64,000 nt of DNA, from positions 1,116,001 through 1,180,000 of the forward strand of contig NZ_BMDQ01000001.1 in the NCBI RefSeq assembly GCF_014635865.1, given 5' to 3'. Under the pieces are notes generated by a model. That model was given only the letters and a program-made list of their open reading frames with translations, was not told the DNA's origin and did not search any database. Positions 40,621-55,264 of this stretch are shown piece by piece. The stretch is from Winogradskyella haliclonae. GTDB lineage: Bacteria; Bacteroidota; Bacteroidia; Flavobacteriales; Flavobacteriaceae. Each line of letters starts with the position of its first letter. The stretch's first letter is position 1. Both the position numbers and the translations under genes were made by a program.

Positions 40621-40694
40621 GGCCTCGTAGTTCAACTGGATAGAATATCAGATTTCGGCTCTGAGGGTTGGGGGTTCGAATCCCTTCGAGGTCA
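40621..40694 (+). tRNA. tRNA-Arg (anticodon TCG)
   Basis: The 74 nt fold as a standard tRNA. The acceptor strands GGCCTCG and CGAGGTC pair with one G-U. The D stem is GTTC/GAAT. The anticodon stem TCAGA/TCTGA closes the loop TTTCGGC with anticodon TCG. A 5-nt variable loop and a T arm with loop TTCGAAT follow, and A is the discriminator. CCA is not encoded. Its last 12 nt plus the next base recur at 55144-55156, which makes it the likely attachment site of the following island. Confidence 0.95.
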
Positions 40695-40695
40695 C
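40683..40695 (+). repeat. Left attachment-like repeat (tRNA-Arg 3' end)
   Basis: The 13 bases CCTTCGAGGTCAC, covering the tRNA 3' acceptor strand and one following base, are identical to 55144-55156 in the same orientation. With a one-base gap the similarity extends further left (AATCCCTTCG against AATCCTTCG). Integration into tRNA 3' ends is a standard route for islands using tyrosine recombinases. Confidence 0.6.
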
Positions 40696-40924
40696 TAGGA
40701 AAATTATAACTCATTAATATTTAATAAGTTAGAATTTTTGTTTTTGTCGCGTGACCAATTTGTGATCAAAATTTATCTCTATACAAGATATAAATTTTAA
40801 TTGATTACCATTCATAAATCACTTATCCATAGTAAATGTAGAGTTATTCACTAAAGTACTTATGTTTTGAGAAAAGGTATTGAATGATATTAAGAATATT
40901 ATAAACAAACTGAATTTTCTTACA
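40696..40924. other. Non-coding stretch at the left end of the island
   Basis: No convincing gene is seen. At about 40751-40772 there is an imperfect tandem pair, TGACCAATTT then TGATCAAAATTT, and GTGACC here is the inverse of GGTCAC at the tRNA end. These could be remains of recombinase arm sites, but the sequence is too short to decide. The rest is AT-rich with no hairpin that I can support. Confidence 0.3.
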
Positions 40925-41431
40925 TTAATTTGATTTAGTTAATTGTATTTCACCTCCGGTATGAAATCCTTCACAATCAGTTCCAATGAAATTTATAGTC
41001 ATCGTATTAAATGTAAATAAACCTGTCCCAGTCAAGGTGCCTTGACAGATAACATTGTTAATACTCGACGTTTGTTGAATAACTGCATTACTTAACTTTC
41101 CATCATCAAAATATTGTGCCGTAATCTGCCCATCATTTTCTTGTCCACAGCAGGATGTTATAGTGTCAGAGAAATAAATTTTTCCAATGATATAATCACC
41201 AGGAACATTACCGTCATCAATAATTAATTGTTGCTTGACATCAATTGTGAAATTTATACCATTTGGATAGCCAGTATTTTCATTGTAAAAGCTATCTTTA
41301 AGATTACCGTTCCATATACCAATTAAATTAGTTTGTTGCTCATTTAGTGTTACAGTATCATCATCATTGTTACATGAAGACATACAGATAGACACAAGGA
41401 ATATTAAAAAAAGTAAAAAGGAATTTTTCAT
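40925..41431 (-). CDS. Hypothetical lipoprotein
   Basis: A 168-aa protein with a lipoprotein signal: hydrophobic MKNSFLLFLIFLVSI followed by CMSSC, then an Asn/Asp run (CNNDDD). Bacteroidota lipoproteins with acidic residues after the cysteine are often surface-exposed, so export to the outer surface is possible. The mature part is predicted beta-rich with a repeated GxW/GxL pattern (LIGIWNGNL, GKIYFSD, GTLTGTGLFTF), suggesting a small lipocalin- or META-like barrel. Four further cysteines include a CC pair. No family is recognised. Motif site 1 lies 57 nt upstream. Confidence 0.6.
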   Translation of the reverse strand: MKNSFLLFLIFLVSICMSSCNNDDDTVTLNEQQTNLIGIWNGNLKDSFYNENTGYPNGINFTIDVKQQLIIDDGNVPGDYIIGKIYFSDTITSCCGQENDGQITAQYFDDGKLSNAVIQQTSSINNVICQGTLTGTGLFTFNTMTINFIGTDCEGFHTGGEIQLTKSN

Positions 41432-41488
41432 ATTAATATGATTTGATTAATGATTACCTCTAAATAATCAAAAATTGGTATGTAAAGA

Positions 41489-41504
41489 GTAGTGATTATT
41501 GCTT
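41489..41504 (-). promoter_or_regulatory. Island motif, site 1
   Basis: The minus strand reads AAGCAATAATCACTAC. It points toward the lipoprotein gene that begins 57 nt downstream on the same strand. Confidence 0.6.
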
Positions 41505-41542
41505 GTTATTTAATGCCAGAAAGTTTTAACAATCGCAGTCAT

Positions 41543-42946
41543 TTATTTGGAAATTTCATCACTATCTTTTTCCAACATGTAGGCATCTGTAACGCCATTG
41601 TATATCCATAGACATTTACCTTTTTCAGAAAAATCTAATTGTAAATCATAGTTTTTGGAGAAGAAATAATTGGGTTTATAGAGAAAAAGTTCTTCTAATG
41701 GCTCGTTATTGGAAAACACAAATACTCTTGCATCTTTAATGATTATTTCAAAAAAATCTTCAACATCGTCAGGATACATATATTTGCCTTTAATGAAATT
41801 ATAGCTTGAGATATCTTCTATAGGAATTTCACTTCTAATTTTAGGATTATAAATCTTTTTCTCGTCCACAATAGCGCTCATGGTTCTACTAACATTAAAG
41901 ACATCTGTATTTTGATGATTATTTAAAGCAATGATACTTCTATTTTTATCCAAATATCTATACATAACAGACTCAAAACCATTAGAAACTCCAGAGCAAT
42001 AAGACAAAACACCGTTAGTTTTCGTTTCAACATTTAACCAACTTCCCAGTGTATATTCCGAATTAGGTAACTTACTAAGCATTAATTGGGTAGAAGACTC
42101 ATTAAGTAATGTTTTATTTTTTAAGGCCAAATGATAGCTATATAAGTCTTCAACTGTTGAATAAGCTGAGGCCTGTCCTTTAAGATTGGGAGTAAAAACA
42201 TATTGAGCTTCTATATTTGTATTGTAACCATCCTTTCCTTCTCCGTATTGATAACCAGAAGCAAAGTTTTCGTATGTTTCTTGAGGATTAAAAACAGCTC
42301 CAGTGTTTTTCATCTTTGCAGGAGAGAAAATGTATTTTTTGCAATACTCTTGATATGTTAACCCAGACACTTGTTCTATAATTTTGGTCAACAAGGCATA
42401 CCCTCCATTAGAATATTCTTCAGAGGTTCCCGGCTCAAAAATCAGTTTTTGATTACTAATAATTTGAATTATACTATCAAAATCAAACACTCTTCTTTCA
42501 TGCCAATTCTCTCTCCAACCTTGAGGAAGTCCTGAACTGTGGTTGAGTAGATGTTTAATTTGTATATTTTGAGAATTAGGAAAATCAGTTAAAAACTTGG
42601 AAAGTTTATCTTCAATAGACAGTTGACCTTTTTCATGTAATTGCAAAATAGCTACTGCAGTAAATGTTTTTGTGATTGATCCTATTTTGAATTTTGTGTC
42701 TTTATTATTTACTATTTGTTGTTCTCGATTAGCAAAGCCAAAACCTTTAGAAAAAATAACAGAATCATTTCTTGCTACTAATACAGTTCCACTATATGAT
42801 GCTGTTTGTGATCTAAGATTTAGATAATCATACATTTGAAGCCTCTCTCCTTTGTATATATTTTGATTGTTTTTAGTATTAGAATTACAGTTTATCAGTA
42901 ATATCGAAAATATTAATACTATAAAAATCTTAGAGTTGTAATTCAT
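41543..42946 (-). CDS. Serine hydrolase lipoprotein, beta-lactamase/PBP4* fold
   Basis: A 467-aa class-C-like serine hydrolase exported as a lipoprotein (LINC lipobox near residue 20). The catalytic SxxK is SITK in FKIGSITKTFTAVAIL, the second motif is YSNGGY, and the HSSGL stretch precedes it. A C-terminal domain of about 110 residues resembles the non-catalytic beta domain of esterase/D-aminopeptidase relatives. Possible substrates are D-amino-acid peptides, esters or beta-lactams; sequence cannot separate them. It appears to be co-transcribed with the small membrane protein upstream (54 nt gap). Confidence 0.85.
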   Translation of the reverse strand: MNYNSKIFIVLIFSILLINCNSNTKNNQNIYKGERLQMYDYLNLRSQTASYSGTVLVARNDSVIFSKGFGFANREQQIVNNKDTKFKIGSITKTFTAVAILQLHEKGQLSIEDKLSKFLTDFPNSQNIQIKHLLNHSSGLPQGWRENWHERRVFDFDSIIQIISNQKLIFEPGTSEEYSNGGYALLTKIIEQVSGLTYQEYCKKYIFSPAKMKNTGAVFNPQETYENFASGYQYGEGKDGYNTNIEAQYVFTPNLKGQASAYSTVEDLYSYHLALKNKTLLNESSTQLMLSKLPNSEYTLGSWLNVETKTNGVLSYCSGVSNGFESVMYRYLDKNRSIIALNNHQNTDVFNVSRTMSAIVDEKKIYNPKIRSEIPIEDISSYNFIKGKYMYPDDVEDFFEIIIKDARVFVFSNNEPLEELFLYKPNYFFSKNYDLQLDFSEKGKCLWIYNGVTDAYMLEKDSDEISK

Positions 42947-42999
42947 TATTTTTTGCCTTGAAAAGTTATTTAGTAGGTGTAGAGTTAGTGGAGTATAGA

Positions 43000-43437
43000 T
43001 TATGACTCATGAGGTGTACTTTCATCAATAGCCATACTTCCAATTATTGCTCCAGCAATAATCCAAGCTATTACGATTTGAAATAATCCAACCATGTATA
43101 AAGTGAAATCGTGTAGAGGTGAAAATACATAAGGATAAGATACTAGAGGAATCCCAAAACCTATAGCCGCTTTGATGCTGGCTTTAATTCCGCCTTTAAA
43201 TCCAGATAGACCTTGTAATCTAACCATTAAACCAAGTCCCCAAGAAATAAATAATGAAATCAAAATTCCGCCTAAATACCAAAGCGGACTATTATTAGCG
43301 TAATCTTCTGGTGTATATCTATGTGCTTCTACTTGAACATCACTAAACCACCAACCATACCAAACCCCTCCAAATATGCTTAGAAAAAGTGCAGATAAAA
43401 TAATCGAAATTGGACGAATTTTTATTTTTTTTTTCAT
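43000..43437 (-). CDS. Hypothetical four-helix membrane protein
   Basis: Taken from the ATG at 43437 the product is 145 aa; an in-frame TTG at 43464 would add 9 residues and is less likely. Hydrophobic segments fall at about residues 8-25, 50-65, 85-105 and 110-135. A short extracytoplasmic loop after the first helix is rich in Trp and His (YGWWFSDVQVEAHRYTPEDY). No known domain. It precedes the serine hydrolase and follows motif site 2 by 53 nt. Function unknown. Confidence 0.6.
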   Translation of the reverse strand: MKKKIKIRPISIILSALFLSIFGGVWYGWWFSDVQVEAHRYTPEDYANNSPLWYLGGILISLFISWGLGLMVRLQGLSGFKGGIKASIKAAIGFGIPLVSYPYVFSPLHDFTLYMVGLFQIVIAWIIAGAIIGSMAIDESTPHES

Positions 43438-43490
43438 GAATATCTTATTTATAATTCCAATCAAAATTGAGATTATTCATTTCTACTAAT

Positions 43491-43506
43491 GTGGTTAAAG
43501 TTGCTT
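43491..43506 (-). promoter_or_regulatory. Island motif, site 2
   Basis: The minus strand reads AAGCAACTTTAACCAC. It lies just after the amidohydrolase stop and 53 nt before the ATG of the membrane protein gene, same strand. It is the most divergent copy in the central bases. Confidence 0.5.
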
Positions 43507-43507
43507 T

Positions 43508-45103
43508 TTATTCTAAATTCTGAGCAGATAATAAAACTCTATCTATTAGTCTCCCTTTTACAATCACTGTTTCAATTGAATTATAAGCATTAATATCTTC
43601 TAAAGGGTTTTTATTCAAAATAAGCAGGTTTGCTTTTTTACCTGTTTTGATACTACCGATTTCATCAATTAAATTAAAAGCTTTAGCATTATTTATAGTC
43701 ACCGCTTTAAAAATTGTTTCTAAAGAAATGCCCGCGTTATCCCAATGAGTCAATTCAAGAAAACCATTATAGCCAGGTGGATTAGTATACATGTTCATTG
43801 CCACACCGTCTGAACCAAATAACAAATTGGCATTATTATCAGATAAAAACTTAGCTATAATCTCTAATCTTTTTTTTACTGCTTCTGTTAGTTTTTGCCT
43901 CATTTCTTCATCGCTTTCAAAATTTGCCCTTGCTTGCTTGTATAATTCAGGATTAACTTTTTTAATAAAATTGATTCTATTTAAGAGCCGTTTTTTTATC
44001 CATTGGGTCTCTTCGGTGTGTAACCAGTCTATGAATATTTTCGGAAGCACATTTTTCATTTCTTCATCTCTAAGAAGGCTTTCTGTTAAAACATCATCTT
44101 CTGCAAACAGGGTTCTAAAAGTAGGCTGATAACCTATTTTTTTATTTGAAATACTTTTCAATAAATCCTGATGAGCTTTTGGTAATTTTGTGTGTTCCAG
44201 CTCTTTTGGATTTGATGTCCAGTTCCACATGCCATGAGCAATAATATCTACATCTACACTTTCAGCGAATGATTGGCCTTCAAAGGATGTGGCATGTAAT
44301 ATGACAGGTAAATTTTCATTATGAGCCTCATCAATGAGTTCTTTCATTATATGTTTTGTTGGTGACTCCCAGAATTTTTTAAATCCAGTGGTTTCATCTT
44401 CATATAATGTTTTTACACATATAGCATTTTCTTTACCTAGGTTCTCAATTACTTTTCTTGGTGTATGCTGCTTTAAATCTATAGAATCGGGAAACTCAAC
44501 ATTCTCATTGTAACTGTCATACAAAAAAGAACTTTGATATCTATGTCTTAATGGCAATTCTTCCATTTCCATCATAAAATCATTCATAACCTGAACTTGT
44601 TCTCCGCAGGTATAGATATCAGGTTTAAATGAAGCAGTGTTAATTCTATCTATAATGTTAGGAGCAAAATTATTTAGGTCTATTAGAGCAGTAAAACCAT
44701 AATATAAAAAGCTTTTGGGAAGCTGTTCAAAATAAACACTAACTAATTCAGGATTGTTTTTACGCTGCTTAAAATTAAGTCCAGGTATGTTAGCTAAATG
44801 AACATGACTATCAATTAATCCAGGTATGATATATTTACCTTTAACATCTATTGTATTGTATTTACCTTTAACATCTATTGTATTGTATTTACCTTTTATT
44901 TGGGGAGCTTTTTCTCCAACATAAACTATAGAATCACTTTGAACTATAAGATGGCTCTGGTTATTTATAATTTCTCCGTGCTGATTGGCTGTTATGATGG
45001 TTGCATTTTTGAAATAAATAGCATCGTCTAATAGTAAATAACTATTTTCATGGTTGCATCCCAATAGAAGTATCCCGAAAATTAAAACTATGCATTTTTT
45101 CAT
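43508..45103 (-). CDS. Exported amidohydrolase lipoprotein
   Basis: A 531-aa amidohydrolase-superfamily protein with a lipobox LLGC near residue 16. The metal site opens with IDSHVHLAN (HxH) near residue 97, continues with a histidine in PVILHATSFEG and IIAHGMW, and closes with the aspartate in LLFGSDGVAM. The C-terminal KKANLLILNKNPLEDI is the typical beta-sandwich return. It resembles imidazolonepropionase-like or prolidase-like enzymes that hydrolyse amide or cyclic substrates. A 9-residue unit (NTIDVKGKY) is duplicated just before the metal motif. It follows an NTF2-like gene by 80 nt on the same strand. Confidence 0.85.
   Translation of the reverse strand: MKKCIVLIFGILLLGCNHENSYLLLDDAIYFKNATIITANQHGEIINNQSHLIVQSDSIVYVGEKAPQIKGKYNTIDVKGKYNTIDVKGKYIIPGLIDSHVHLANIPGLNFKQRKNNPELVSVYFEQLPKSFLYYGFTALIDLNNFAPNIIDRINTASFKPDIYTCGEQVQVMNDFMMEMEELPLRHRYQSSFLYDSYNENVEFPDSIDLKQHTPRKVIENLGKENAICVKTLYEDETTGFKKFWESPTKHIMKELIDEAHNENLPVILHATSFEGQSFAESVDVDIIAHGMWNWTSNPKELEHTKLPKAHQDLLKSISNKKIGYQPTFRTLFAEDDVLTESLLRDEEMKNVLPKIFIDWLHTEETQWIKKRLLNRINFIKKVNPELYKQARANFESDEEMRQKLTEAVKKRLEIIAKFLSDNNANLLFGSDGVAMNMYTNPPGYNGFLELTHWDNAGISLETIFKAVTINNAKAFNLIDEIGSIKTGKKANLLILNKNPLEDINAYNSIETVIVKGRLIDRVLLSAQNLE
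44832..44885 (-). repeat. 27-bp perfect tandem duplication inside the amidohydrolase
   Basis: Two exact 27-bp copies (44832-44858 and 44859-44885) are followed by the first 10-12 bases of a third. The frame is kept and nine residues are repeated ahead of the metal-binding motif. It looks like recent slippage. Confidence 0.9.
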
Positions 45104-45183
45104 ATTTGTTGGATTATTTTTATAAAAAATTCTAAAACTATTCCAGGATTAGGAATTAGTTCTACGCACATTGTATCAAATCA

Positions 45184-45690
45184 CTATTTATGCATTAAAC
45201 TCTCAGGTATTTTATTATTTATAGACTCATCTTCCCAAAGTAAACTGGTAATCCACCAGCACCCTTTTTCTTTTACAAGTTGAATGCAATTGATTCCTCT
45301 AGCTTCAATTTTACCATCTTTTGAAAACTTATATTGAAAAGCACTATATACCATTGCCACACCTCCAAACCTCATTACTCTTCTTCCAATTTCTTCTTCA
45401 TAAAAATCGCTTTTCTTTAAAAAAGCATCATTGTTTAAAATATATTGGTCTACCGTAAAACCATAAAAAGTTCTTTTACCATCTTGCCCCAAAATAGTAG
45501 CTCCCATTTTAGCTGATTCATGAAAAAGTGATTTGAAGCTTTCCCAATCACGTTCTCCCGCTTCTCCAGAGAGAATATCATATGTGGCATTTATGACATC
45601 ATCTATAGATTGGTTATTATATATTATTTGAGAATGTGAGTCGGTTAGGCTTATTAGAATTAGCAATAGCGCTAAGGGTAGTCTTTTCAT
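45184..45690 (-). CDS. Secreted NTF2/SnoaL-like protein
   Basis: A 168-aa protein with a signal peptide (cut near SHSQ, residue 20). The mature part fits a cone-shaped NTF2-like fold: an opening helix (DVINATYDILSGEAGERDWE), FKSLFHESAKM, and closing strands MVYSAFQYKFSKDGKIEARG and CWWITSLLWEDES. Such domains bind small ligands or act as simple enzymes; no catalytic set can be assigned. It is the first gene of a leftward unit that includes the amidohydrolase, and motif site 3 lies 98 nt upstream. Confidence 0.7.
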   Translation of the reverse strand: MKRLPLALLLILISLTDSHSQIIYNNQSIDDVINATYDILSGEAGERDWESFKSLFHESAKMGATILGQDGKRTFYGFTVDQYILNNDAFLKKSDFYEEEIGRRVMRFGGVAMVYSAFQYKFSKDGKIEARGINCIQLVKEKGCWWITSLLWEDESINNKIPESLMHK

Positions 45691-45788
45691 AATTATTGTT
45701 AAAGTTTTTATAATATATGTTACGAATTGTACTTTTTAGCGTTAGATAAGATTAAATAACCAAGATTATTGTATTGCATATAAATTAT

Positions 45789-45804
45789 GTGGTCATTATT
45801 GCTT
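45789..45804 (-). promoter_or_regulatory. Island motif, site 3, between divergent genes
   Basis: The minus strand reads AAGCAATAATGACCAC. It points to the NTF2-like gene (98 nt away) and ends only 7 nt before the ATG of the AraC-family gene on the other strand. About 24 nt downstream on the minus strand is TAATCTTG, one base from TAnnTTTG. Confidence 0.6.
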
Positions 45805-45811
45805 TTTATTT

Positions 45812-46717
45812 ATGAAAACACTTAGAATATATACATATAGAGGAGAAAAGGTTAGAAATGACAAAGAAATTAAGTCTTCTAATAGTGTTGTATACTCTGA
45901 ATTAAAGACTTTTGAAGCACAGTTGTATTCTGGTCATTATGGAATAAAACTACCTTTAGAAGGTAATGAAAGCTATGTCGTAAATGGTAAAAAGTTTAAT
46001 GTAAAAGAAGGTCATTACCTATTAACAAATCCTGGTCTTAAAACTGAGGTGTCAGTAAACTCAAATAAACTTGTAAAAGGCATATGTATCGGGTTTACTG
46101 AAGATTTCTTAAAAAGCCTATATGCAAATATGAATTCTGATTTTAAAAGCGCTTTAGAATTAAAAGAAGATTCATCAGATTTTATGTTGGTCAGTCACAA
46201 TTATGCTATTAAAAACAGCCATCTTTCTTGTTTTCTTGGAACGTTAAAATCAAATTTTATGGCTAATCATTTAACTCAGGATTATAATGAAGAACTTTTT
46301 TTCTTAGATCTTGGGGAAACACTTATTAATGATCAACTAGAACTTAGATTAAAAATTAACAATTTAAATCAAACTAAATTTTCTACTCAAGAGGAAATAT
46401 ATAGAAGAATTGATTTGATGAATCAATATATTCATGATAATTATTACAATAATATTTCTTTAGAAAAATTAGCTAAAATCGCTTGTTTATCTAAGTATCA
46501 TGCTGTTAGGTGTTACCAAAAAATTGAAGGCATTTCTCCTTATAAAAAAATCATGAACCTTAGACTTAGCAAAGCTGAGGAGCTTTTGTTAAAGGGTTAC
46601 AGTATTAACGAGGTTTCAGATTCCTGCGGATTTGCAGATTATAGAGCTTTTTCTAAATTGTTTAAAAAGGTTTATAATACAACACCTTCTAAATACAAAC
46701 AAATCATTAAGCAATAA
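45812..46717 (+). CDS. AraC-family transcriptional regulator
   Basis: A 301-aa regulator. The N-terminal part (about 1-170) is a sensor region with beta strands and a cupin-like hint (HYGIKLPLEGNESYVVNGKKF and EGHYLLTNPG). The C-terminal AraC/XylS domain (about 200-300) has two helix-turn-helix motifs, one around LEKLAKIACLSKYHAVRCYQ and the second at INEVSDSCGFADYRAFSKLF, closed by KKVYNTTPSKYK. It lies near the centre of the island, divergent from the left arm. Motif site 3 sits just before its start and site 4 overlaps its stop codon, so it is the leading candidate to bind the repeated motif. Confidence 0.9.
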   Translation: MKTLRIYTYRGEKVRNDKEIKSSNSVVYSELKTFEAQLYSGHYGIKLPLEGNESYVVNGKKFNVKEGHYLLTNPGLKTEVSVNSNKLVKGICIGFTEDFLKSLYANMNSDFKSALELKEDSSDFMLVSHNYAIKNSHLSCFLGTLKSNFMANHLTQDYNEELFFLDLGETLINDQLELRLKINNLNQTKFSTQEEIYRRIDLMNQYIHDNYYNNISLEKLAKIACLSKYHAVRCYQKIEGISPYKKIMNLRLSKAEELLLKGYSINEVSDSCGFADYRAFSKLFKKVYNTTPSKYKQIIKQ

Positions 46718-46724
46718 TTTCCAC
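46709..46724 (+). promoter_or_regulatory. Island motif, site 4, overlapping the AraC stop
   Basis: AAGCAATAATTTCCAC on the plus strand. Its first half encodes the last residues and the stop of the AraC-family gene. It points toward the small open frame at 46751. Confidence 0.5.
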
Positions 46725-46750
46725 GCATTTTTTGATGATACACTTCAATT

Positions 46751-46894
46751 TTGAGTATCATCAAAAAAATCACAGAAAAAGAGTTTATAGAATTATCTGG
46801 AGACGCCATAGAGTTTTCAGTAATCATAAAAAAGGAAAATGACGAAATTCAATCTTCTGTTTGCTTAAAAAAAAGCTTATTAGTTACCTGTTAG
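46751..46894 (+). pseudogene. Short open frame, possibly frameshifted small gene
   Basis: From a TTG the frame codes 47 residues, a charged, regular stretch (KKITEKEFIELSGDAIEFSV), and then ends in SLLVTC. A run of eight A bases at 46867-46874 precedes the end. One extra A would switch to a frame reading KKLISYLLGIISEIKNKS, which looks more protein-like and stops at 46923-46925. It may be a small gene broken in a homopolymer, a sequencing slip, or chance. No homologue is recognised. Confidence 0.3.
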
Positions 46895-47006
46895 GTATTA
46901 TTAGTGAAATTAAAAATAAATCATAGCTATATTATTTTAATGATTTAGAATAAATGTAATGAATGTATAGGACTAATGTTAAAACAGGATTTCCTTTTTG
47001 ACTTTT

Positions 47007-47022
47007 AAGCAACAATTACCAC
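47007..47022 (+). promoter_or_regulatory. Island motif, site 5
   Basis: AAGCAACAATTACCAC on the plus strand, 70 nt before the ATG of the LolA-like/NTF2-like gene. The rest of the 46.9-47.09 kb gap is AT-rich with no other clear signal. Confidence 0.6.
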
Positions 47023-47092
47023 ATCACTATTAAAGTATTTCTTTTTTATTGTGTATTAATACTATTAAGAATTAAATATAATATAGTAAAAT

Positions 47093-48220
47093 ATGAAAAA
47101 AGCTATTTTTTTATTATTAGTGTTAATAAGCTTCAACTTACAAGCACAAGACTCAAAAGTAAGCGATATATTAAATAAACATTTTAAAGCTGTAAATCAA
47201 TCCAAATTAAATAATATAAATAGCTTAAGCATAGATGGATTATTTACACAAAACGGCATAGAATTAAGCCTGAAAATATTTAAGCAACGTCCTGATAAGT
47301 GGTATCAAAAAATAGAGCTAAACGATACTAAAATGGTAGTAGTCATGAATGAAAATTCTGGTTGGGAAATCAATCAATTTTCAGGGATTATTAACCCAGT
47401 AGATTTTAATCAAGCCAAAATAAACACCTACAGCAGAAGTGCTTCAATAGATAATCAACTATGGTACTTAAAACAAAATAATGCTAAATTTAAAAATCTT
47501 GGTAATGATACTGTTAACAATAAAAAATCTATAAAACTTAAAGTTACAAATGAATTTGGAGGTGTATCGTACATTTGGATTGATACTAAAACCTATTTAA
47601 TTAATCAAACTGAAGATATTGTTACAAAACAAAAGTTATTTTATGAAGAATATCAGGTTATAGATGGCATGTTATTCCCTAAAAAAGTAAACGCAGGAGC
47701 ATATCAATTAGAGTTTATTAAGATTGAACTTAACCCTAAAATAGACGCCTCGCTATTTACTAAAGGAGATATAAAGTCGGTTAAAGATATTGCAAAAGCA
47801 TACCTAAAGACTTTTTATAATCTCGATTATAAGAAACTAGAAACTTACTATACCGATGAGTCTTTTTGGTTCGATCCGTCAACTTCCGTGATAATACCAA
47901 ACCCTCAAAAGAGTATAGGTAAGAATAAAATCATTGCTAGTTTGAAAAGTGGGTTTAATGGGGTCCAAGATGCCAAATATACTTTTGAAAAAGAGTTTTA
48001 TTCTGGTTCACATGCAGCCATTTGGGGGAATTACTTTTATCGAATACCAGCTAAATATTTTCAAGGAATGAAACATTCAGATGCTATTTTTGAGTTTAAT
48101 ATACCTATGGTAACTAATTTGGTAATTAAAGATGGAAAGGTTTTAGAACATTTTGAGCACGCTGATTGGACAGAATGGGCAAAACAAGCGCAGACTAATG
48201 CCCAAAAGGCCAATAAATAA
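47093..48220 (+). CDS. Secreted protein with LolA-like and NTF2-like domains
   Basis: A 375-aa protein with a signal peptide (cut near LQAQ, residue 18). Residues of about 20-230 resemble LolA/LolB-type sheets found in many Bacteroidota periplasmic proteins: LSIDGLFTQNGIELSLKIFK, MVVVMNENSGWEINQFSG and the FEEYQVIDGMLFPKKVNAG type of strand. Residues of about 240-355 fit an NTF2/SnoaL fold (DIAKAYLKTFYNLDYKKLE and HAAIWGNYFYRIP). The two folds joined in one exported chain suggest binding of a hydrophobic ligand, but this is inference. It follows motif site 5. Confidence 0.65.
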   Translation: MKKAIFLLLVLISFNLQAQDSKVSDILNKHFKAVNQSKLNNINSLSIDGLFTQNGIELSLKIFKQRPDKWYQKIELNDTKMVVVMNENSGWEINQFSGIINPVDFNQAKINTYSRSASIDNQLWYLKQNNAKFKNLGNDTVNNKKSIKLKVTNEFGGVSYIWIDTKTYLINQTEDIVTKQKLFYEEYQVIDGMLFPKKVNAGAYQLEFIKIELNPKIDASLFTKGDIKSVKDIAKAYLKTFYNLDYKKLETYYTDESFWFDPSTSVIIPNPQKSIGKNKIIASLKSGFNGVQDAKYTFEKEFYSGSHAAIWGNYFYRIPAKYFQGMKHSDAIFEFNIPMVTNLVIKDGKVLEHFEHADWTEWAKQAQTNAQKANK

Positions 48221-48227
48221 TAGTAAA

Positions 48228-48374
48228 ATGAATGGCTTTTCAATAGGTCTAAATGAAGGTAAAAGTAAATTCATTGAACAAACAGAAAAGTTTATTAAGT
48301 ATCCTATTAATAGCTTAGTTGTGGATATCGAAGTAGCTGATTTTAATGATGATTCTAAACCAGATATCTTTTAG
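48228..48374 (+). pseudogene. Fragment of an FG-GAP/VCBS-type protein
   Basis: A 48-codon open frame starting at ATG just after the preceding stop. Its end, VADFNDDSKPDIF, matches the calcium-binding FG-GAP/VCBS repeat pattern (DFNxDGxPDI), and it stops right there. There is no signal peptide. It is best read as a small remnant of a larger repeat protein. Confidence 0.4.
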
Positions 48375-48470
48375 AGCGTTTTGGGAGTAATGATAAGTTC
48401 CTTTTAAGTAGTCCATAGTCAAGATGACTAACATTTTTTTGTTACCCTCTTATGTAAAATATAAAATTAA

Positions 48471-49133
48471 ATGGCTCGCTTTAAAAAAATAATTTCTGCA
48501 AAGAATGTTAAGTATTTTATATTAGAAGTAGCTCTAATATTTATAGGATTAACTCTTGCTATATGGTTTAATAATTGGAATGAGAACAGAAAGACAAACA
48601 TCTCCAAAGATATTGTCCTGTCAAAAATTCGAAATGAAATAAATAATAATTATCATGAAATTGAAGATAACATTCAAGATTTAGATACCGTAATTAAAAC
48701 AATTGAGGATTTTAAAAGATTAAGTGGTTTAAATAATACTTTTAAAGCTTCATTAGAAGAATTAAACATATTTCAGAAAATAAATCCCAATTTTTTTACA
48801 ATAAAAAAATCTAAAAAGCTCAATGAAGGCAAACTATATGAATTCAATGGTTCAATAACGTTACGTTTTGAAATAACGAATCTTAAATTTATAGCATTCG
48901 AAACAGCAAAGTCCACTAACATTTTAAGTAAGATTAAATATAATTGTCTTTATGAATTAGAAGACTTATATAGCCAAAAATATCGTATCTCCAGACTTCT
49001 TGATAAAGCGGTGGAATTACTACAAGAAGGGAAATTTCAAGAGCTAATGAGAAACTTAAAACAAGTAAATCTGTTACAAATACAATTATTAGAACAACGT
49101 ATAAAATATAAAACTAATTTAAATGATTGTTAA
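48471..49133 (+). CDS. DUF6090-like membrane protein
   Basis: A 220-aa protein. The N-terminus has a basic lead, one transmembrane helix (about residues 14-33) and then FNNWNENRKT, the hallmark of DUF6090 proteins that abound in marine Flavobacteriaceae. The remaining part is helical and charged, with coiled-coil character (HEIEDNIQDLDTVIKTIEDF). Function of the family is unknown. It overlaps the next gene by 11 nt (ATGATTGTTAA junction), so it is the first member of a coupled trio. Confidence 0.75.
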   Translation: MARFKKIISAKNVKYFILEVALIFIGLTLAIWFNNWNENRKTNISKDIVLSKIRNEINNNYHEIEDNIQDLDTVIKTIEDFKRLSGLNNTFKASLEELNIFQKINPNFFTIKKSKKLNEGKLYEFNGSITLRFEITNLKFIAFETAKSTNILSKIKYNCLYELEDLYSQKYRISRLLDKAVELLQEGKFQELMRNLKQVNLLQIQLLEQRIKYKTNLNDC

Positions 49134-50118
49134 AAGCATATTCTCCAAACCATATTATTTAATGTTATTATTAAGTATTAATCTTTATGGACAAACGGGC
49201 ACTGTCGAAGCCGAGTTAGAAGAAGATTTTAAGTACGAGTTTAAATCTTTAAAAAAAGAGCATGACAAAACGGTTTTAATAGATAGTATTCATAACACCA
49301 TCTATTCAAAGCCTTATGGTAAAGAAACTGCACGAGAGATGTTGCGAATTATTAAGGCAGATGGTTTTAACATTAAGTTTTCTGGTGATAAATTGTTAGA
49401 AAAGCAGCTAAATACAGAAAGTACCGACTTATTGGTAATTCACGGAATACCAAATAATAAGCTGATTTTAAATAACGAAAACAGTAATGAAACTTTATAT
49501 ACTTCGCCTTTAACCACAGACGAGATAGTCAACATAGGTAAGTTTGTATATAATGGTGGTGGACTATTTTTATTCCTATCTCATTTCCCAGAAGGCAGTG
49601 GTGCACTTCCTCTTTTAGAAGCCTTTGAAATAAAATTTAGAGATGGGTACGCTTTTCATTCGCAGTATCACACAAGTGAAGATGGACTTTGTGGGCACTT
49701 TATGATGAACCAGCAAAATGAAATGTTAAATACTGAACATCAAATTTTTAGTAATACCATAGATAAAAATACTATTCCTGAAAATATTCGTTTTTACTGT
49801 GGTGCAGCTGTATTTAGAAATCCTGAGGATGTTATTCTACCTTTTCCTAAAAATACTATTAATTATACACCTAAAACCAATTATCAACCCAATTCAGGTG
49901 AGATAAAATACATAGAAGAAAGTTCAAACAATTATGCAGGCATGATTGGTTTTGAATATGGAGAAGGAAGAATTGTAGTCTGCACTGATCAAGGCATTTT
50001 TAGAAGTATGAATTTAATTATTAAAGACAAAAAAATACCAGTAACTATTCATGATCCTGAAGCAGATAATGCTGGCCTATTTTTAAATATATTAAGATGG
50101 CTAACAAAACTTCAATAA
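49123..50118 (+). CDS. Secreted ThuA/DUF4350-like protein (glutamine-amidotransferase-like fold)
   Basis: A 331-aa protein with a signal peptide (cut near NLYGQ). The body has the order expected of the class-I glutamine-amidotransferase-like fold used by ThuA and DUF4350 proteins: STDLLVIHGIPNNKLILN, EIVNIGKFVYNGGGLFLFLS, an HPE-like SHFPEGSG, then FEYGEGRIVVCTDQGIFR and the terminal NAGLFLNILRWL. The catalytic cysteine of true amidotransferases is not evident at the nucleophile elbow, so a binding role is as likely as catalysis. It is coupled on both sides by overlaps. Confidence 0.65.
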   Translation: MIVKSIFSKPYYLMLLLSINLYGQTGTVEAELEEDFKYEFKSLKKEHDKTVLIDSIHNTIYSKPYGKETAREMLRIIKADGFNIKFSGDKLLEKQLNTESTDLLVIHGIPNNKLILNNENSNETLYTSPLTTDEIVNIGKFVYNGGGLFLFLSHFPEGSGALPLLEAFEIKFRDGYAFHSQYHTSEDGLCGHFMMNQQNEMLNTEHQIFSNTIDKNTIPENIRFYCGAAVFRNPEDVILPFPKNTINYTPKTNYQPNSGEIKYIEESSNNYAGMIGFEYGEGRIVVCTDQGIFRSMNLIIKDKKIPVTIHDPEADNAGLFLNILRWLTKLQ

Positions 50119-51287
50119 TGTTAGTCAAGAAGATAAAACTAATCTTAATTTGTTTGATGCTCTCTTTTGTTGCCCCAGCTCAAAATGAAGATTCATTAAT
50201 GTTAAAGTTCAATGAGCTAAACAATAAATTATATAGTAGACCTGTAAATTACATTAAAGGTAACCAATTGTTATATGAGTATAAAGATTACTTTGTTCAT
50301 ACAAGCCTTGAATCTTTCTTTCATCAAGCTTCTGCAACTTTCTATGCTGCTTCAGGTAATCAGTTTAAGGCGAAAAAACATTATTGGTTATCAAAAGGTA
50401 AAAAAATGGACAGCTTAAAAGTGGTTTTTGGTTCTCTTGAAAACTATAGAAATATTTTCCGGTATACTGAGAATAAGAAAGTGGTAATGATCAATGAAAA
50501 TCATGCGTTTCCTGAGCACAGAGTATTTACGACAAGCCTTTTGGATAGCTTATTTAAGCAAGGTTTTAGATATTTAGCATTAGAAGATTTATTAAGCGCA
50601 AAAATAATTAACCAACGCTCAACTCCATATTTATCAGATGGGCTATATATTAACGAAGTTATGTACTCCGAAATGGTTAGAAAGGCTCTGGATATTGGTT
50701 TTACCATGGTTGCATATGACAATAATGACGCTTGGGATATTAGAGAAAGGGATTCATTGGCAACTCAAGAATTGAAAAAGGTTTTTGAAAAAGACCTAAA
50801 TGCGAAAATGATAATTCATTGTGGGTTTGGACATATTGATGAATCAAAAAAAGTATTAGCATCTTTCATTAAATCTAAATTGGGTATAGATCCATTAACG
50901 ATTTCTCAAACTAGTCTACAACCAGTTATAGTAGAGAAATTTATTGAAGAACCTAAACTAATTTTAGGAACATTAAACCCAAAACTATTTGAAACTAAAT
51001 CGGATTTTCAAGTCATTCATCCTAATTACGATTATGCCATTAGACCTGAGTATCTATTCGTTAACGAACGACAAAAAGTTCAATTAGAGTTAAACTTTGA
51101 CGTTTCTGAAGAATTAATTTTAGAAGTTTATCAAAATAAACAATCAGACGGAGCAGTTCCCTATGATCGAATTATCATAGAACCTAAGACAAAAAGCATT
51201 GATATTTCTGCACCCAGAGGGCTACTCAAAATTCTATTTAAAAACCAGAATGATGAAATAGTTAAACGAATGAAAATATCTAATTAA
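50118..51287 (+). CDS. Secreted EreA/ChaN/TraB-superfamily-like protein
   Basis: I take the ATG at 50118, which overlaps the previous stop (TAATG) and opens a good signal peptide (MLVKKIKLILICLML, cut near APAQ); a longer reading from 50097 would bury it. The product is 389 aa. The core shows the spaced motifs of the erythromycin-esterase/ChaN/TIKI clan: NENHAFPEHR, FRYLALEDLL and an IIHCGFGHIDE histidine loop. A C-terminal beta domain follows. Members include haem-binding proteins, metalloproteases and macrolide esterases, so the activity cannot be fixed. Confidence 0.6.
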   Translation: MLVKKIKLILICLMLSFVAPAQNEDSLMLKFNELNNKLYSRPVNYIKGNQLLYEYKDYFVHTSLESFFHQASATFYAASGNQFKAKKHYWLSKGKKMDSLKVVFGSLENYRNIFRYTENKKVVMINENHAFPEHRVFTTSLLDSLFKQGFRYLALEDLLSAKIINQRSTPYLSDGLYINEVMYSEMVRKALDIGFTMVAYDNNDAWDIRERDSLATQELKKVFEKDLNAKMIIHCGFGHIDESKKVLASFIKSKLGIDPLTISQTSLQPVIVEKFIEEPKLILGTLNPKLFETKSDFQVIHPNYDYAIRPEYLFVNERQKVQLELNFDVSEELILEVYQNKQSDGAVPYDRIIIEPKTKSIDISAPRGLLKILFKNQNDEIVKRMKISN

Positions 51288-51373
51288 CGATTTACAACAA
51301 AATTTCCTGTTTTAACTACTTTAAAATTATAATTTCTGTGTGTATTACTAAGTTATTTGGCGTCCCTTTAATC

Positions 51374-51389
51374 GAGCAATAATTACCAC
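51374..51389 (+). promoter_or_regulatory. Island motif, site 6
   Basis: GAGCAATAATTACCAC on the plus strand, 43 nt before the ATG of the redoxin lipoprotein gene. Confidence 0.6.
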
Positions 51390-51432
51390 AATTATTAATT
51401 ATATTCTTAGTCTTTTTAAGAAAACTTAATTA

Positions 51433-52731
51433 ATGAAAGGAATAAAAAACCTGGCTTTTATAATTGTATCAATAATTTCACTGGCAAGTTGTCGTCAAGA
51501 AAAAATGCAAACCACAAAGCAAGAAACAAATCTGAAAGCAACTCAAGAAACAACTGAAAAAGCTGAAGTTACTAAAGAGATAAGCGAATTAACTGCTGAG
51601 GATGTATTGACAAAGTCTATCGAAAAATGTAAATCAATTTCTTCGATTGAATACACCATTAACCAAAAAGGAGTGTCTGGCAAATATGGTTATGGACAAC
51701 CTAAAATAAAAGCTACAATAATTCAGAAAAAAGAAGCTAGTGCTATAGATATTGGTTTTGATAAAGCATTTATAAAAGCATCAGGTGTTATTACCGATAA
51801 CCAAAAGAAAACTCCTTTTTCATTTAGTTATGATGGGGACAATTTTATGTATAATAAAGGTAATACCAGGCAAAAAAGCGTTTCTGACCCAACAAGAAAA
51901 GTAACGATGGGGAAATTACAACAATATTTATTTATGATTCGAATTTTCCCTTTTGTAGAAGATGAACCTTATAAAATGCCAGCCAAAAGCAATGAATATG
52001 ATATAAAACTCTTAGATAAAGAAGAAAAACAAGGTTTGTCTTGCTATAAAATAGAAACTTCAGTCACATTTAAAGCACCTAACGGAAAAGACTTAATTAC
52101 TAAGAATATATGGTGGATTAGTGAGTTAGATTATCTACCAAGAGCTTATTCTGATGGTTTTGTATATAAAGACATTGTCTATAAAAAGATGAATGAAGCA
52201 ATACCAAAATCTTTTTTTTCATTGGAAAATAAAAACACATCTATAGACTACTTAACCAGTAATCAAGTAGAAAGTGAACTTGCAAAAGCCTATTTACTTC
52301 CCGAAGGAACAATACCTTCTAGATGGTATTCAAATGACCAGTTTGGTAAGGAATATGATTCAGATAAATTAAAAGGAAAAGTAATACTTATAGATTTTTG
52401 GGGAAGTTGGTGTACACCATGCATTCTTGCAATGCCAGATATTCAAAAACTGCAAGATCATTATAAAAACAACCCGAATGTAGCCATTATTGGTATTTCG
52501 GCAGGCGAAAGAGATAAAGAAGCATCTCTTAAACTATTTAATAAAAAACGCTACAATTACGTACTTATACCTAATGGCGATAGCATTGCAAAATCTATTT
52601 ATAAAGTGAAAGACTACCCATCATTATACATTTTAGACAGGCAAGGAAAAATTGTTAGCGCAGAAAAGGGCTTTACGCCTGATAGTTTTGAACGTTGGCG
52701 GGAAATTATAGATGAACAGTTAAAAATGTGA
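51433..52731 (+). CDS. TlpA-like redoxin lipoprotein with LolA-like N-terminal domain
   Basis: A 432-aa lipoprotein (lipobox LASC near residue 20). After a Thr/Glu-rich linker, residues of about 55-275 form a LolA-like sheet (SIEYTINQKGVSGKYGYGQP, FSYDGDNFMYNKG and KNIWWISELDYLPRAYSDG). The C-terminal TlpA/ResA-type thioredoxin domain carries Cys327-Thr-Pro-Cys330 in GSWCTPCILAMPD and a cis-proline in KDYPSLYILD. It is likely to be a membrane-tethered disulfide reductase coupled to a ligand- or client-binding domain. Motif site 6 precedes it. Confidence 0.85.
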   Translation: MKGIKNLAFIIVSIISLASCRQEKMQTTKQETNLKATQETTEKAEVTKEISELTAEDVLTKSIEKCKSISSIEYTINQKGVSGKYGYGQPKIKATIIQKKEASAIDIGFDKAFIKASGVITDNQKKTPFSFSYDGDNFMYNKGNTRQKSVSDPTRKVTMGKLQQYLFMIRIFPFVEDEPYKMPAKSNEYDIKLLDKEEKQGLSCYKIETSVTFKAPNGKDLITKNIWWISELDYLPRAYSDGFVYKDIVYKKMNEAIPKSFFSLENKNTSIDYLTSNQVESELAKAYLLPEGTIPSRWYSNDQFGKEYDSDKLKGKVILIDFWGSWCTPCILAMPDIQKLQDHYKNNPNVAIIGISAGERDKEASLKLFNKKRYNYVLIPNGDSIAKSIYKVKDYPSLYILDRQGKIVSAEKGFTPDSFERWREIIDEQLKM

Positions 52732-52891
52732 TTAATATAAAATTTTGAATCATTATTTGAGTAATATTGAACGACATTTATATATTTATATAGCTTTGAT
52801 AAATAATAGAAATTTCCATATTATATGATTGCTTATCCTGGCTATATAAATAGTACTTGAAAGAGAAGATAGTTAGTAATATTCAAAGTAG

Positions 52892-53749
52892 ATGATTTCT
52901 GTAAAAAAAGCCTTTAATCAAAAAAAAGCAAGGATTTTAGAGCCAGTAATATTAGGTGTTTCAGCGAACATTTTAATAAATTTTTTATTCAATCCCACTA
53001 GTCCTGATTTCCTTTTAAAAGAGTTTATTGTTGCTATAATTTTTGCTTTTATAATAACAGAGCTCAATAGATTTATTTATTTGAAAATAGAAAATACAAT
53101 TGACTGGAAATCAAGCTTCAAATCAAAATTAGTATTAAATTTTTTCACTGTCAGTACTCTTTTGATAATTATACTTAATACCATAGGTAATTTATATATA
53201 TGGCTTTCTGGAGATAGTTTTCATTCCTTAGAAGAATTGTTATTGATAAATTTAATAGTCTTGAGCATAGTATTAATACTATCACTTACTAGGTGGTGTA
53301 TGTTTCTTCATAATAAATGGGTATTAACTCAAAAAGATTTAACGAATAATAAAAAGGAAAATTTAAACCTAAAACAACTCATTCATAAATCTTCTAAAAA
53401 AATAAAACTCTCAAAAAGGAATTCAATATTTATGGTTGAAGCAGCTAATATTAAATTGGCTATTTTGGAATATGGCAATATAAAAATCTACGATAATAAA
53501 GACATATTAGGAGTTTTTGAAGGCTCCTTAGCCAACTTAGAATCACAATTACCAAAAGCATTTTTTTTCAAAGTATCTAGACAAGTTATTATACATAGAG
53601 AAGAAGTTAAAAAAATGTCACCATCTAATTATGGTAAAATAGAACTTGAGCTTCATAATAAATCAGCAAAAAATCCATTTGTGATGATTAGTAGATTAAA
53701 AGCCTCTAAATTTAGGCAGTGGTATTATAGCAATTCAAGTATAGATTGA
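52892..53749 (+). CDS. Membrane-anchored LytTR-family DNA-binding protein
   Basis: A 285-aa protein with about four N-terminal helices (residues 20-135), a linker and a C-terminal LytTR domain (about 185-280). The LytTR pattern shows as IFMVEAANIKLAILEYGNIK, GSLANLESQLPKAFFFKVSR and QVIIHREEVKKM. No receiver domain is present, so it may sense through the membrane part. This architecture is common in Bacteroidota, often beside the genes it controls. It lies between the redoxin and a serine hydrolase, in the right arm of the island. No island motif is found upstream. Confidence 0.85.
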   Translation: MISVKKAFNQKKARILEPVILGVSANILINFLFNPTSPDFLLKEFIVAIIFAFIITELNRFIYLKIENTIDWKSSFKSKLVLNFFTVSTLLIIILNTIGNLYIWLSGDSFHSLEELLLINLIVLSIVLILSLTRWCMFLHNKWVLTQKDLTNNKKENLNLKQLIHKSSKKIKLSKRNSIFMVEAANIKLAILEYGNIKIYDNKDILGVFEGSLANLESQLPKAFFFKVSRQVIIHREEVKKMSPSNYGKIELELHNKSAKNPFVMISRLKASKFRQWYYSNSSID

Positions 53750-53822
53750 TAGCAGTTCGTTAATGTTATCTAACTAAAAGCAAAAATTTTCTCTTGTATG
53801 CTTTTTTTTTGAAGAAAAAATC

Positions 53823-54962
53823 ATGAAGCATTTTACAACAAAGAAACTGGCCATAGTTTTTAGTCTAATAGTAAGCATTTCTTACACGGCATTGGCTCTC
53901 CAAACACCAAGTTCAAAACTAAATAAAATTCAATCTATAATAGATAAAGCAACTCAAGGTAAACTACAAGGTGTTTTAGTATCTATAGAAAGTCCAGAAC
54001 ATGGTAAGTGGATTGTTAAATCTGGTTTTGCAAATGCAGAAACTAAAACTTTAATTGATAAAAAAGCGATATTCAGCTTGGCAAGTATAGGTAAAACTTA
54101 TACAGCTGTAACTGTTTTAAAGTTAGTGGAGGAAGGTAAATTGCAACTGGATGATAAAATTCAAAAATACTTACCAAAGGAGATTATAAATGGCTTGCCA
54201 AACGCTGAAAAAGTTACAGTAAAGCAATTATTAGGACATACTTCGGGCTTTTATAATTATAATGCTAACCCTGAGCTTAACGAATTATATCTTTCTGGAA
54301 GTTTAAAGCTTGATACATTATCACATATTAATGCATTAAGGAGATATGCATATGGTAAAACATATCCAAGAGCTATTTATGGTATGTATAATTATTGTAG
54401 TACCAACTATTTATTATTGGCCATGATTATGGATAACATATTGCCAGAAGGACATATAAAATTTGTTAGAGACTTATTAAAGCAGCATAATTTTAAAAAC
54501 ACCTATTATAAGCAATTACCTAAATTTAGTGATTTACAATACTATGGAGATATTGACTTAGATGAAAAATTAGAAAATTTAACTAAGCAAACAATAGAAA
54601 CCACTAACTGGTATTGCGGTGATGATGGTATGTATGCAACTATTGATGATGCAACGAGCTTTTTGAAAAAACTTATGAAAGGCAAAATTCTAGGTAAGAA
54701 AGTACTAAAAGAAATGATGATGTGGAATGATGATAAGAATCCTGATTACGGTTTAGGGTTAATGGCAGATAAAGGATTTCCATATAAACTATCAATCGGT
54801 CATTCTGGACGAGGGATTGGAATAACGACCGATTTGTATTATTTCCCAGATAAGGAGATGACTATAGCAATATTCTGTAATACAGGTTTGCGTTCAGCGT
54901 CACCAGTATTCAAAAAGGAATATAATAAAATGAGAAACAAAATTATTAAAAGGCTCTTTTAA
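53823..54962 (+). CDS. Secreted serine hydrolase, beta-lactamase/D-aminopeptidase fold
   Basis: A 379-aa serine hydrolase with a signal peptide (cut near TALAL, about residue 25) and no lipobox. The SxxK motif is SIGK in FSLASIGKTYTAVTVL, the tyrosine motif is YCSTNY, and the third motif lies in GHSGRGIG. It is shorter than the island's other serine hydrolase because it lacks the C-terminal beta domain. Potential substrates are D-amino-acid peptides, esters or beta-lactams. It is the last intact gene of the island. Confidence 0.87.
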   Translation: MKHFTTKKLAIVFSLIVSISYTALALQTPSSKLNKIQSIIDKATQGKLQGVLVSIESPEHGKWIVKSGFANAETKTLIDKKAIFSLASIGKTYTAVTVLKLVEEGKLQLDDKIQKYLPKEIINGLPNAEKVTVKQLLGHTSGFYNYNANPELNELYLSGSLKLDTLSHINALRRYAYGKTYPRAIYGMYNYCSTNYLLLAMIMDNILPEGHIKFVRDLLKQHNFKNTYYKQLPKFSDLQYYGDIDLDEKLENLTKQTIETTNWYCGDDGMYATIDDATSFLKKLMKGKILGKKVLKEMMMWNDDKNPDYGLGLMADKGFPYKLSIGHSGRGIGITTDLYYFPDKEMTIAIFCNTGLRSASPVFKKEYNKMRNKIIKRLF

Positions 54963-54972
54963 TTTAACTATT

Positions 54973-54988
54973 AAGCAATAATCACTAC
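54973..54988 (+). promoter_or_regulatory. Island motif, site 7
   Basis: AAGCAATAATCACTAC on the plus strand, 11 nt after the serine hydrolase stop. It points toward the open remnant at the right end of the island and matches site 1 at all 16 bases. Confidence 0.55.
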
Positions 54989-55166
54989 ATGCCTACTGAA
55001 ACCTATTTTGGAAGTTTATGATTTGAAAAATCTTCCTAACGAAGGGGGACTAGGTATAGGTGTATCGCGTGGAGGAGCTTATTTCGCATATTTTTCTTAT
55101 GAAAAATTGAAAAACCAACAATTTTTGACACATCAAAAACAATCCTTCGAGGTCACAAATAAATAG
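54975..55166 (+). pseudogene. Open remnant without a start, right island end
   Basis: A frame of 63 codons runs open from just after a stop at 54972 to TAG at 55164-55166 with no plausible start. It contains LKNLPNEGGLGIGVSRGGAY and passes straight through the attachment-like repeat. I recognise no family, and in particular no recombinase C-terminus. It may be the 3' remains of a gene whose front was lost, or chance. Confidence 0.25.
55144..55156 (+). repeat. Right attachment-like repeat
   Basis: CCTTCGAGGTCAC, identical to 40683-40695 at the tRNA-Arg 3' end and in the same orientation. It is followed 23 nt later by a hairpin terminator that has no gene of its own, as expected if the tRNA's terminator was pushed away by an insertion. 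Confidence 0.6.
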
Positions 55167-55177
55167 TTTAATTAGAA

Positions 55178-55212
55178 AGAACGCCAAGCTTGCTTGAGCG
55201 TTTTTTTGTTTT
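55178..55212 (+). terminator. Orphan intrinsic terminator
   Basis: AACGCCAAGC, a TT loop and GCTTGAGCGTT form a hairpin with one bulged A, followed by a T tract. It lies just beyond the right repeat and has no intact gene directly upstream. It is probably the original tRNA-Arg terminator. Confidence 0.75.
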
Positions 55213-55264
55213 ATAAGAGTATATTTCTCACTTATTTTAAAAGGCTCTATATTTACAACTAACA

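Follow-up and report, generated by a model that had tools for sequence, protein, structure and literature searches.

A decayed genomic island at a tRNA-Arg gene of Winogradskyella haliclonae, the probable product of site-specific integration

Positions 40696-55156 of the 64,000-nt stretch of the Winogradskyella haliclonae genome analysed here (contig NZ_BMDQ01000001.1, positions 1,116,001-1,180,000; hereafter the window, within a genome of 3.05 Mb denoted G000) are very probably a genomic island that was integrated site-specifically at a tRNA-Arg gene by a tyrosine recombinase and subsequently lost its integrase, leaving a remnant that resembles the cis-mobilizable elements (CIMEs). The single tRNA gene of the window, tRNA-Arg(TCG), was called by ARAGORN and is intact; its last 13 bases, CCTTCGAGGTCAC, recur on the same strand at the far end of the segment (Table 1) and nowhere else in the genome. 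Counted from the tRNA end, the insert comprises 14,461 bp. Under a mononucleotide model, the chance expectation for the repeat is 0.014 copies when both strands of the genome are considered and about 5e-5 for a single strand of 20 kb; for a 12-base part of the repeat with up to one mismatch, the expectation in the window is 0.04 and two occurrences are seen. Outside its own gene, the next-best local match of tRNA-Arg in the window has a score of 11, compared with 13 for the right repeat, and when one base is gapped the right copy lengthens, on a reading by eye, to AATCC-TTCGAGGTCAC. The first-pass annotation of this DNA had pointed to the exact recurrence of the tRNA end in the same orientation, to the extended similarity with one base gapped, to the improbability of a chance match and to a change of gene content at the tRNA; the first three are borne out by these figures, and the last by the gene families on either side. 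Base composition was considered as a marker of the right edge and dropped: the GC content is 0.294 in the island, 0.344 over about 20 kb on its left and 0.314 in the 8.8 kb on its right, so that this edge is unmarked by composition alone.

The uninterrupted form of the locus is present in a close relative, G023, in which a letter-for-letter identical tRNA-Arg is followed directly by AAATAAATAGTTTAAT, that is, by the sequence that stands after the right repeat in G000. Of the bases aligned between G023 and this sequence, 902 of 997 agree, compared with 564 of 873 in a control with the left arm of the island; on the yqeY side, 415 of 457 bases agree, and the identities of the M90 peptidase and YqeY proteins to those of G000 are 92% and 97%, respectively. 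This arrangement is the empty site that the first-pass annotation had predicted, with tRNA-Arg, a terminator near 55178 and the MtfA-like M90 gene. In two further relatives, G019 and G020, yqeY and M90 closely flank another allele of the tRNA, with tRNA-to-M90 distances of 147 and 205 bp and flank agreements of 794/997 (control 564/876) and 691/977 (control 558/855), respectively. A search with the island DNA in 17 other genomes of the genus matched 178 bp at most. Where tRNA-to-M90 intervals were compared, likewise in 17 other genomes (open frames of at least 60 amino acids, E 1e-5), homologues of island genes were confined to G032, which has serine hydrolases with no more than 30% identity; relatives that keep the same genes here without the repeat, a finding that the first-pass annotation had named as contrary to its proposal, are thus not encountered among the 17. 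As a separate observation, the two tRNA-Arg(TCG) alleles found at the same place in G000 and G023, on the one hand, and in G019 and G020, on the other (L112-L114), are 72% identical. The 25 bases upstream of the gene contain a single difference between G000 and G019, and because this upstream sequence is nearly identical, the whole tRNA gene seems to have been cleanly swapped.

Most genes of the island occur together at another chromosomal location in another genus. A scan of contigs with the 331-residue protein, which reaches close relatives only, returned one locus, on NZ_CANMRL010000001.1 of an uncultured Psychroserpens (G388), where a cluster of about 25.6 kb contains complete or almost complete counterparts of 10 of the 13 island genes, in the same order and orientation, with protein identities of 56-95%. 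The amidohydrolase and the DUF1761 protein are represented there by fragments, no relative of the 396-residue protein was found in the cluster, and additional genes, several of which are paralogues, are interspersed. DNA homology to the cluster spans positions 40825-54958, and the arms of 129 and 185 bp that lie outside it are candidate element ends. In the left half of the island, identity to the cluster reaches 94.7% in a 2161-bp stretch and 90.5% in one of 1837 bp, whereas the flanking core DNA is 71.8% (823 bp) and 70.7% (348 bp) identical between the two genomes, which indicates that the left half was exchanged between the two genera more recently than their core genes diverged. For this half, the comparison speaks against vertical inheritance of all island genes, the other outcome that the first-pass annotation had considered damaging to its proposal. 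In G388, some 506 kb separate the tRNA-Arg from the cluster, and the sequence behind this tRNA contains nothing of the island DNA. The G388 cluster itself (L181, L165, L182) looks exported, contains many paralogues of the thioredoxin-domain, serine hydrolase and AraC genes of the island and runs well past the part common to both.

The same tRNA gene holds other inserts and scars within the genus. Among 31 genomes with an M90 gene of the locus type (G000 included, weaker distant M90 matches left out), M90 is on the tRNA contig in 27, at less than 600 bp from the tRNA in 12, at 1.4 kb in one and at 3 kb or more in 14, again including G000. Exact 10-base copies of the tRNA end at the far end are found in three of these 14 long intervals (G000, G013 and G032); the other 11 have no far-end repeat with the four exact patterns tried. 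Given this proportion, and given that several intervals carry two conserved genes (of about 740 and 535 amino acids), interval length was rejected as a sign of an island. A far-end tRNA scrap is also present in G066, and a recombinase was detected, by the profiles used, in one (G013) of the four scarred inserts of at least 8 kb (G000, G013, G032 and G066). The 8.9-kb insert of G013 occupies the same tRNA, ends in the same kind of 3' scrap followed by the same native flank, and encodes a 439-residue tyrosine recombinase (PF00589, PF13102) about 210 bp from the right repeat as well as a small HTH_17 protein. The displaced scrap of G032 and G066 has the sequence CCCTTCGAGGTCAC, and their present tRNA has CCTCTCGAGGTCAC. 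Such a difference would be expected of an element that came with a tRNA 3' end of its own; replacement of the tRNA at a later time could also account for it. The inserts of G066 (48 kb; L183-L185) and G032 (46 kb; L105-L107) have similar gene layouts. In G020 and G067, a scar ends 107 bp from the tRNA end; here (L114 and L186, respectively) a short insert with a terminator-like hairpin separates the tRNA from a 17-base scrap, AATCCCTTCGAGGTCAC, after which the native flank resumes, and the present tRNA of G020 is the other allele than the scrap. G060, in which a 10-bp match lies beside an integrase without the native flank next to it, was dropped as a supporting case.

These observations are consistent with a scheme in which a circular molecule with its own copy of the tRNA 3' end would have recombined with the chromosome at the 3' part of tRNA-Arg(TCG), so that the tRNA stayed whole (attL), and the displaced scrap and the native terminator were moved 14.5 kb away (attR). 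The integration would have been carried out by a tyrosine recombinase because this is the only family known to target tRNA genes (PMC4383910) and the G013 insert, located at the same tRNA, encodes one. The integrase gene was presumably lost afterwards, and the remnant could then move only with an integrase supplied; with no integrase left, present-day excision is doubtful, and the island most likely lacks its own means of moving.

The left arm contains a putative former integrase arm-type binding site, the repeat GTGACCAATTTGTGATCAAA, which lies 55 bases past the tRNA end. It is the only match to the motif in the window with up to three mismatches (0.05 expected). When one mismatch was allowed, a search of 68 genomes of the genus gave a single further place, in G033, and no second exact match. 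The generalised pattern GTGACCAAWTTGTGAYCAAA is present in nine IMG/VR contigs representing six distinct loci, compared with none for the reversed pattern; a stricter motif is found in six contigs, all of them among the nine. A tRNA end or an integrase is close by in four of the six distinct loci. The motif of L192 lies 56 bases from the 3' end of a tRNA-His, that of L191 stands beside a tRNA-Ser-like end (recognized by eye and not called by ARAGORN) with a PF00589 protein about 820 bp away, that of L196 and L199 is within the start of a PF00589 open frame, and that of L197 is about 20-30 bases from a PF00589 gene. In L194, a small gene whose similarity to HTH_17 falls below the cut-off is located about 750 bp from the motif, and in L193, L195 and L198 it lies inside a phage coding region with no link to a tRNA or an integrase. 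The possibility of a viral element combining a tRNA-Arg end with the motif was rejected because all three matches came from one phage coding region.

Several observations weigh against an integrase-mediated origin of the whole block. A six-frame search of the entire genome for PF00589 located six places, none of them in the window; for the island, this is a firmer result than the profile searches, in which the island frames of at least 30 amino acids yielded no recombinase with either a profile of 20 integrases of the genus or a broader profile. Both profiles matched recombinases only in the G013, G060 and G082 stretches and not in the island, G032 or G066; they lean on the G013 family, which limits the negative result for G032 and G066, neither of which was scanned with Pfam. 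The G013 enzyme escaped both a motif pattern and a profile built from own-genome and viral integrases alone. A single-sequence search with the own-genome integrases found nothing, not even this enzyme, so that its null carries no weight. The pattern used for the viral contigs was generalised (W, Y) after the left arm had been seen; two of the six distinct viral loci have neither a tRNA end nor a PF00589 gene nearby; in L192, the motif and the tRNA-His are on opposite strands; and no copy of the motif is present in the G013 insert. In addition, the colinear pieces of the right half are 71-76% identical to the G388 cluster, which is the level of core genes, and this cluster is not at a tRNA-Arg. 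As the resemblance of the right half to Psychroserpens does not exceed that of the core, the island need not have arrived as one piece.

The unequal divergence of the two halves (90-95% against 71-76% identity) is what would be seen if the scar had been left by an earlier, different element and the present genes had come later, stepwise, into the site left behind, through transformation or homologous recombination, in which case the att repeats would not date the cargo. Turnover of elements at this tRNA is seen in G020 and G067, which keep a bare scar. However, there is a single scrap, located at the exact far edge, and the homology to one colinear cluster runs nearly from end to end of the island, so that we consider such a piecemeal history rather unlikely. 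The 11 intervals of at least 3 kb without a far-end repeat, out of 14 such intervals among 27 genomes, might suggest that the 13-bp repeat is a coincidence in ordinary strain-variable DNA between yqeY and M90; yet its chance expectation is minute and the native flank resumes exactly past the right copy, and this explanation, refuted by the empty site in G023, is scarcely tenable. The absence of the block from G023, G019 and G020 does not, by itself, separate gain from loss. Descent from an ancestral block, however, would require a base-exact loss in G023 that restored both the tRNA and the terminator, which is itself excision at att sites; the left half resembles another genus much more closely than the core genes do, and none of the 17 compared intervals holds the block, so that ancestral presence is extremely improbable. 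It is also quite improbable, although less so than coincidence or ancestral loss, that the region is a cargo-only mobile unit, that is, a paralogue-rich envelope cluster that would move between flavobacterial genera with no more than its own att sites and arm-type repeats, served in trans by integrases of phages or other elements. If this were the case, the scarred inserts without a detected integrase (G000, G032 and G066) would be working passenger islands and not decayed remains. Integration followed by loss of the integrase is accordingly the explanation that we favor, and the island is a real and ordinary case of a known kind, a decayed genomic island.

Table 1. Features of the island and of its borders (positions in the window; percentages are protein identities to the Psychroserpens G388 cluster)
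Feature	Positions	Strand	Remarks
tRNA-Arg(TCG)	40621..40695	+	Intact; target gene; 3' end is attL; identical gene in G023
Left copy of 13-bp direct repeat	40683..40695	+	Recurs exactly at 55144..55156
Left arm, 129 bp between tRNA and onset of DNA homology to G388 cluster	40696..40824		Homology starts at 40825
GTGACCAATTTGTGATCAAA, two near-copies, 11-base period	40751..40770	+	Candidate integrase arm-type site
168-residue lipoprotein-like protein	40925..41431	-	No Pfam family; 95%
Serine hydrolase, Beta-lactamase family PF00144	41543..42946	-	95%
DUF1761 protein	43000..43464	-	52-residue fragment, 87%
Amidohydrolase PF01979	43508..45103	-	72-residue fragment, 92%
168-residue protein	45184..45690	-	No Pfam family; 86%
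AraC-type regulator	45812..46717	+	91%
375-residue protein	47093..48220	+	Weak DUF4440/SnoaL-like similarity only; 71%
220-residue protein	48471..49133	+	Weak DUF6090 similarity only; 62%
331-residue protein	49123..50118	+	No assigned family; 73%
396-residue protein	50097..51287	+	No assigned family; no relative in G388 cluster
Lipoprotein-like protein, C-terminal thioredoxin (TlpA/ResA-like) domain	51433..52731	+	70%
LytTR regulator	52892..53749	+	56%
Second serine hydrolase, PF00144	53823..54962	+	77%
Right arm, 185 bp	54959..55143		No homology to G388 cluster beyond a 24-bp match
Right repeat copy, displaced tRNA 3' scrap (attR)	55144..55156	+	One base lost upstream of scrap
Native tRNA 3' flank and terminator hairpin, displaced by island	55157..55215	+	Fold z -3.38; directly after tRNA in G023
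M90 (MtfA-like) peptidase gene, native right neighbour	55265..56104	+	Adjoins tRNA in G023, G019 and G020

Judging from their N-termini, the island proteins appear to be exported, and our guess is that the two serine hydrolases, the lipoprotein with a thioredoxin domain, the amidohydrolase and the two regulators form an envelope or periplasm module. Both PF00144 serine hydrolases score far below the NCBI cut-offs for class C beta-lactamases, and, of the 298 other genomes sampled from the family, 12 contain relatives of the amidohydrolase, which are at most 49% identical (E 1e-60). Pfam identified no recombinase, relaxase, conjugation or phage family among the 13 main proteins, all of which were scanned (the smaller frames were outside the relaxase and conjugation scan), and PADLOC gave no match to a defence system for any of the 13. 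There was no match in PHROGs for the six main proteins scanned against it, none for the island in a near-identity search of plasmid and phage DNA, and none to the G013 recombinase in the G000 genome at E 0.001; among viral contigs, no relatives of the second serine hydrolase or of the G013 integrase were found. An open frame in the right arm, which continues through the repeat to 55166, belongs to no family and had no match in the searches. For a terminator in the left arm, the indication is weak (fold z -1.13), and a terminator pattern scan listed neither this candidate nor the native terminator. A stretch of about 190 bp (41492-41682), where the gene for the first serine hydrolase has its 3' end, shares 87% identity with G000:C2:336062-336254 and may represent a paralogue or a patch of recombination.

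A different kind of unit is seen on the other side of the tRNA-Arg gene in G011 (L109), G012 (L046) and G067 (L186), where a small GIY-YIG endonuclease gene (PF01541 in all three, from proteins typed by eye) is located just upstream of the tRNA, between the intact tRNA and a copy of the tRNA 5' half that is interrupted by a GC-rich palindrome; in G012, the unit is present twice, in tandem. The arrangement is suggestive of a homing unit by which the 5' half of the tRNA is rebuilt. A literature search for such a combination of GIY-YIG gene and tRNA half-copy retrieved nothing relevant, and no publication on the tRNA-Arg site in Winogradskyella or Psychroserpens was found by title in a search that mostly did not extend to subscription journals.

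The locus is a clean worked case that combines a terminal repeat, an exact empty site, an integrase-bearing insert in the same tRNA, bare scars and the same genes elsewhere in another genus. The closest counterpart at the same site is the G013 insert, which shares the tRNA-Arg, the kind of 3' scrap and the native flank after the scrap with the island but is shorter, has a tyrosine recombinase and an HTH_17 gene, carries different cargo and lacks the arm-type motif. Under the Islander definition, an island consists of an intact tRNA gene and a downstream 3' fragment in the same orientation, 2-200 kb apart, with an integrase gene inside (PMC4383910); the present island agrees with this definition in its intact tRNA-Arg, same-orientation fragment and length of 14,461 bp, but contains no integrase open frame and therefore would be filtered out, and finders that demand an integrase would miss such blocks. 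If islands without an integrase were shown to move in trans, much of the accessory gene traffic in marine flavobacteria would become testable. Similarly to the additive flexible islands described in Methylophilaceae, cargo lies beside a tRNA gene (tRNA-Lys in Methylophilaceae) with recurring tRNA-end repeats, although the tycheposons described there have a tyrosine recombinase, belong to another phylum and differ in cargo (PMC10872708). In Elizabethkingia, a 43-kb region with an integrase near a tRNA-Arg gene has been described (PMC4961963), and further comparisons were drawn from PMC11389934. CIMEs, which derive from integrative and conjugative elements (ICEs) or integrative and mobilizable elements (IMEs) and are mobilised in cis after accretion (PMC5704250; PMC7563491), appear to be the best-fitting known kind. 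As in the CIMEs, attL and attR are kept, the integration genes, if formerly present as we suppose, are gone, the target is a tRNA 3' end, other elements or scars occupy the same target in relatives, and no relaxase or conjugation family is found by Pfam among the main proteins; unlike in the CIMEs, no conjugation relic is seen in the island and no accretion in the G000 genome, and for the putative descent from an ICE or IME no parent element was found. The short scars of G020 and G067, in turn, may correspond to the elements for which the term microCIME is used in PMC7563491.

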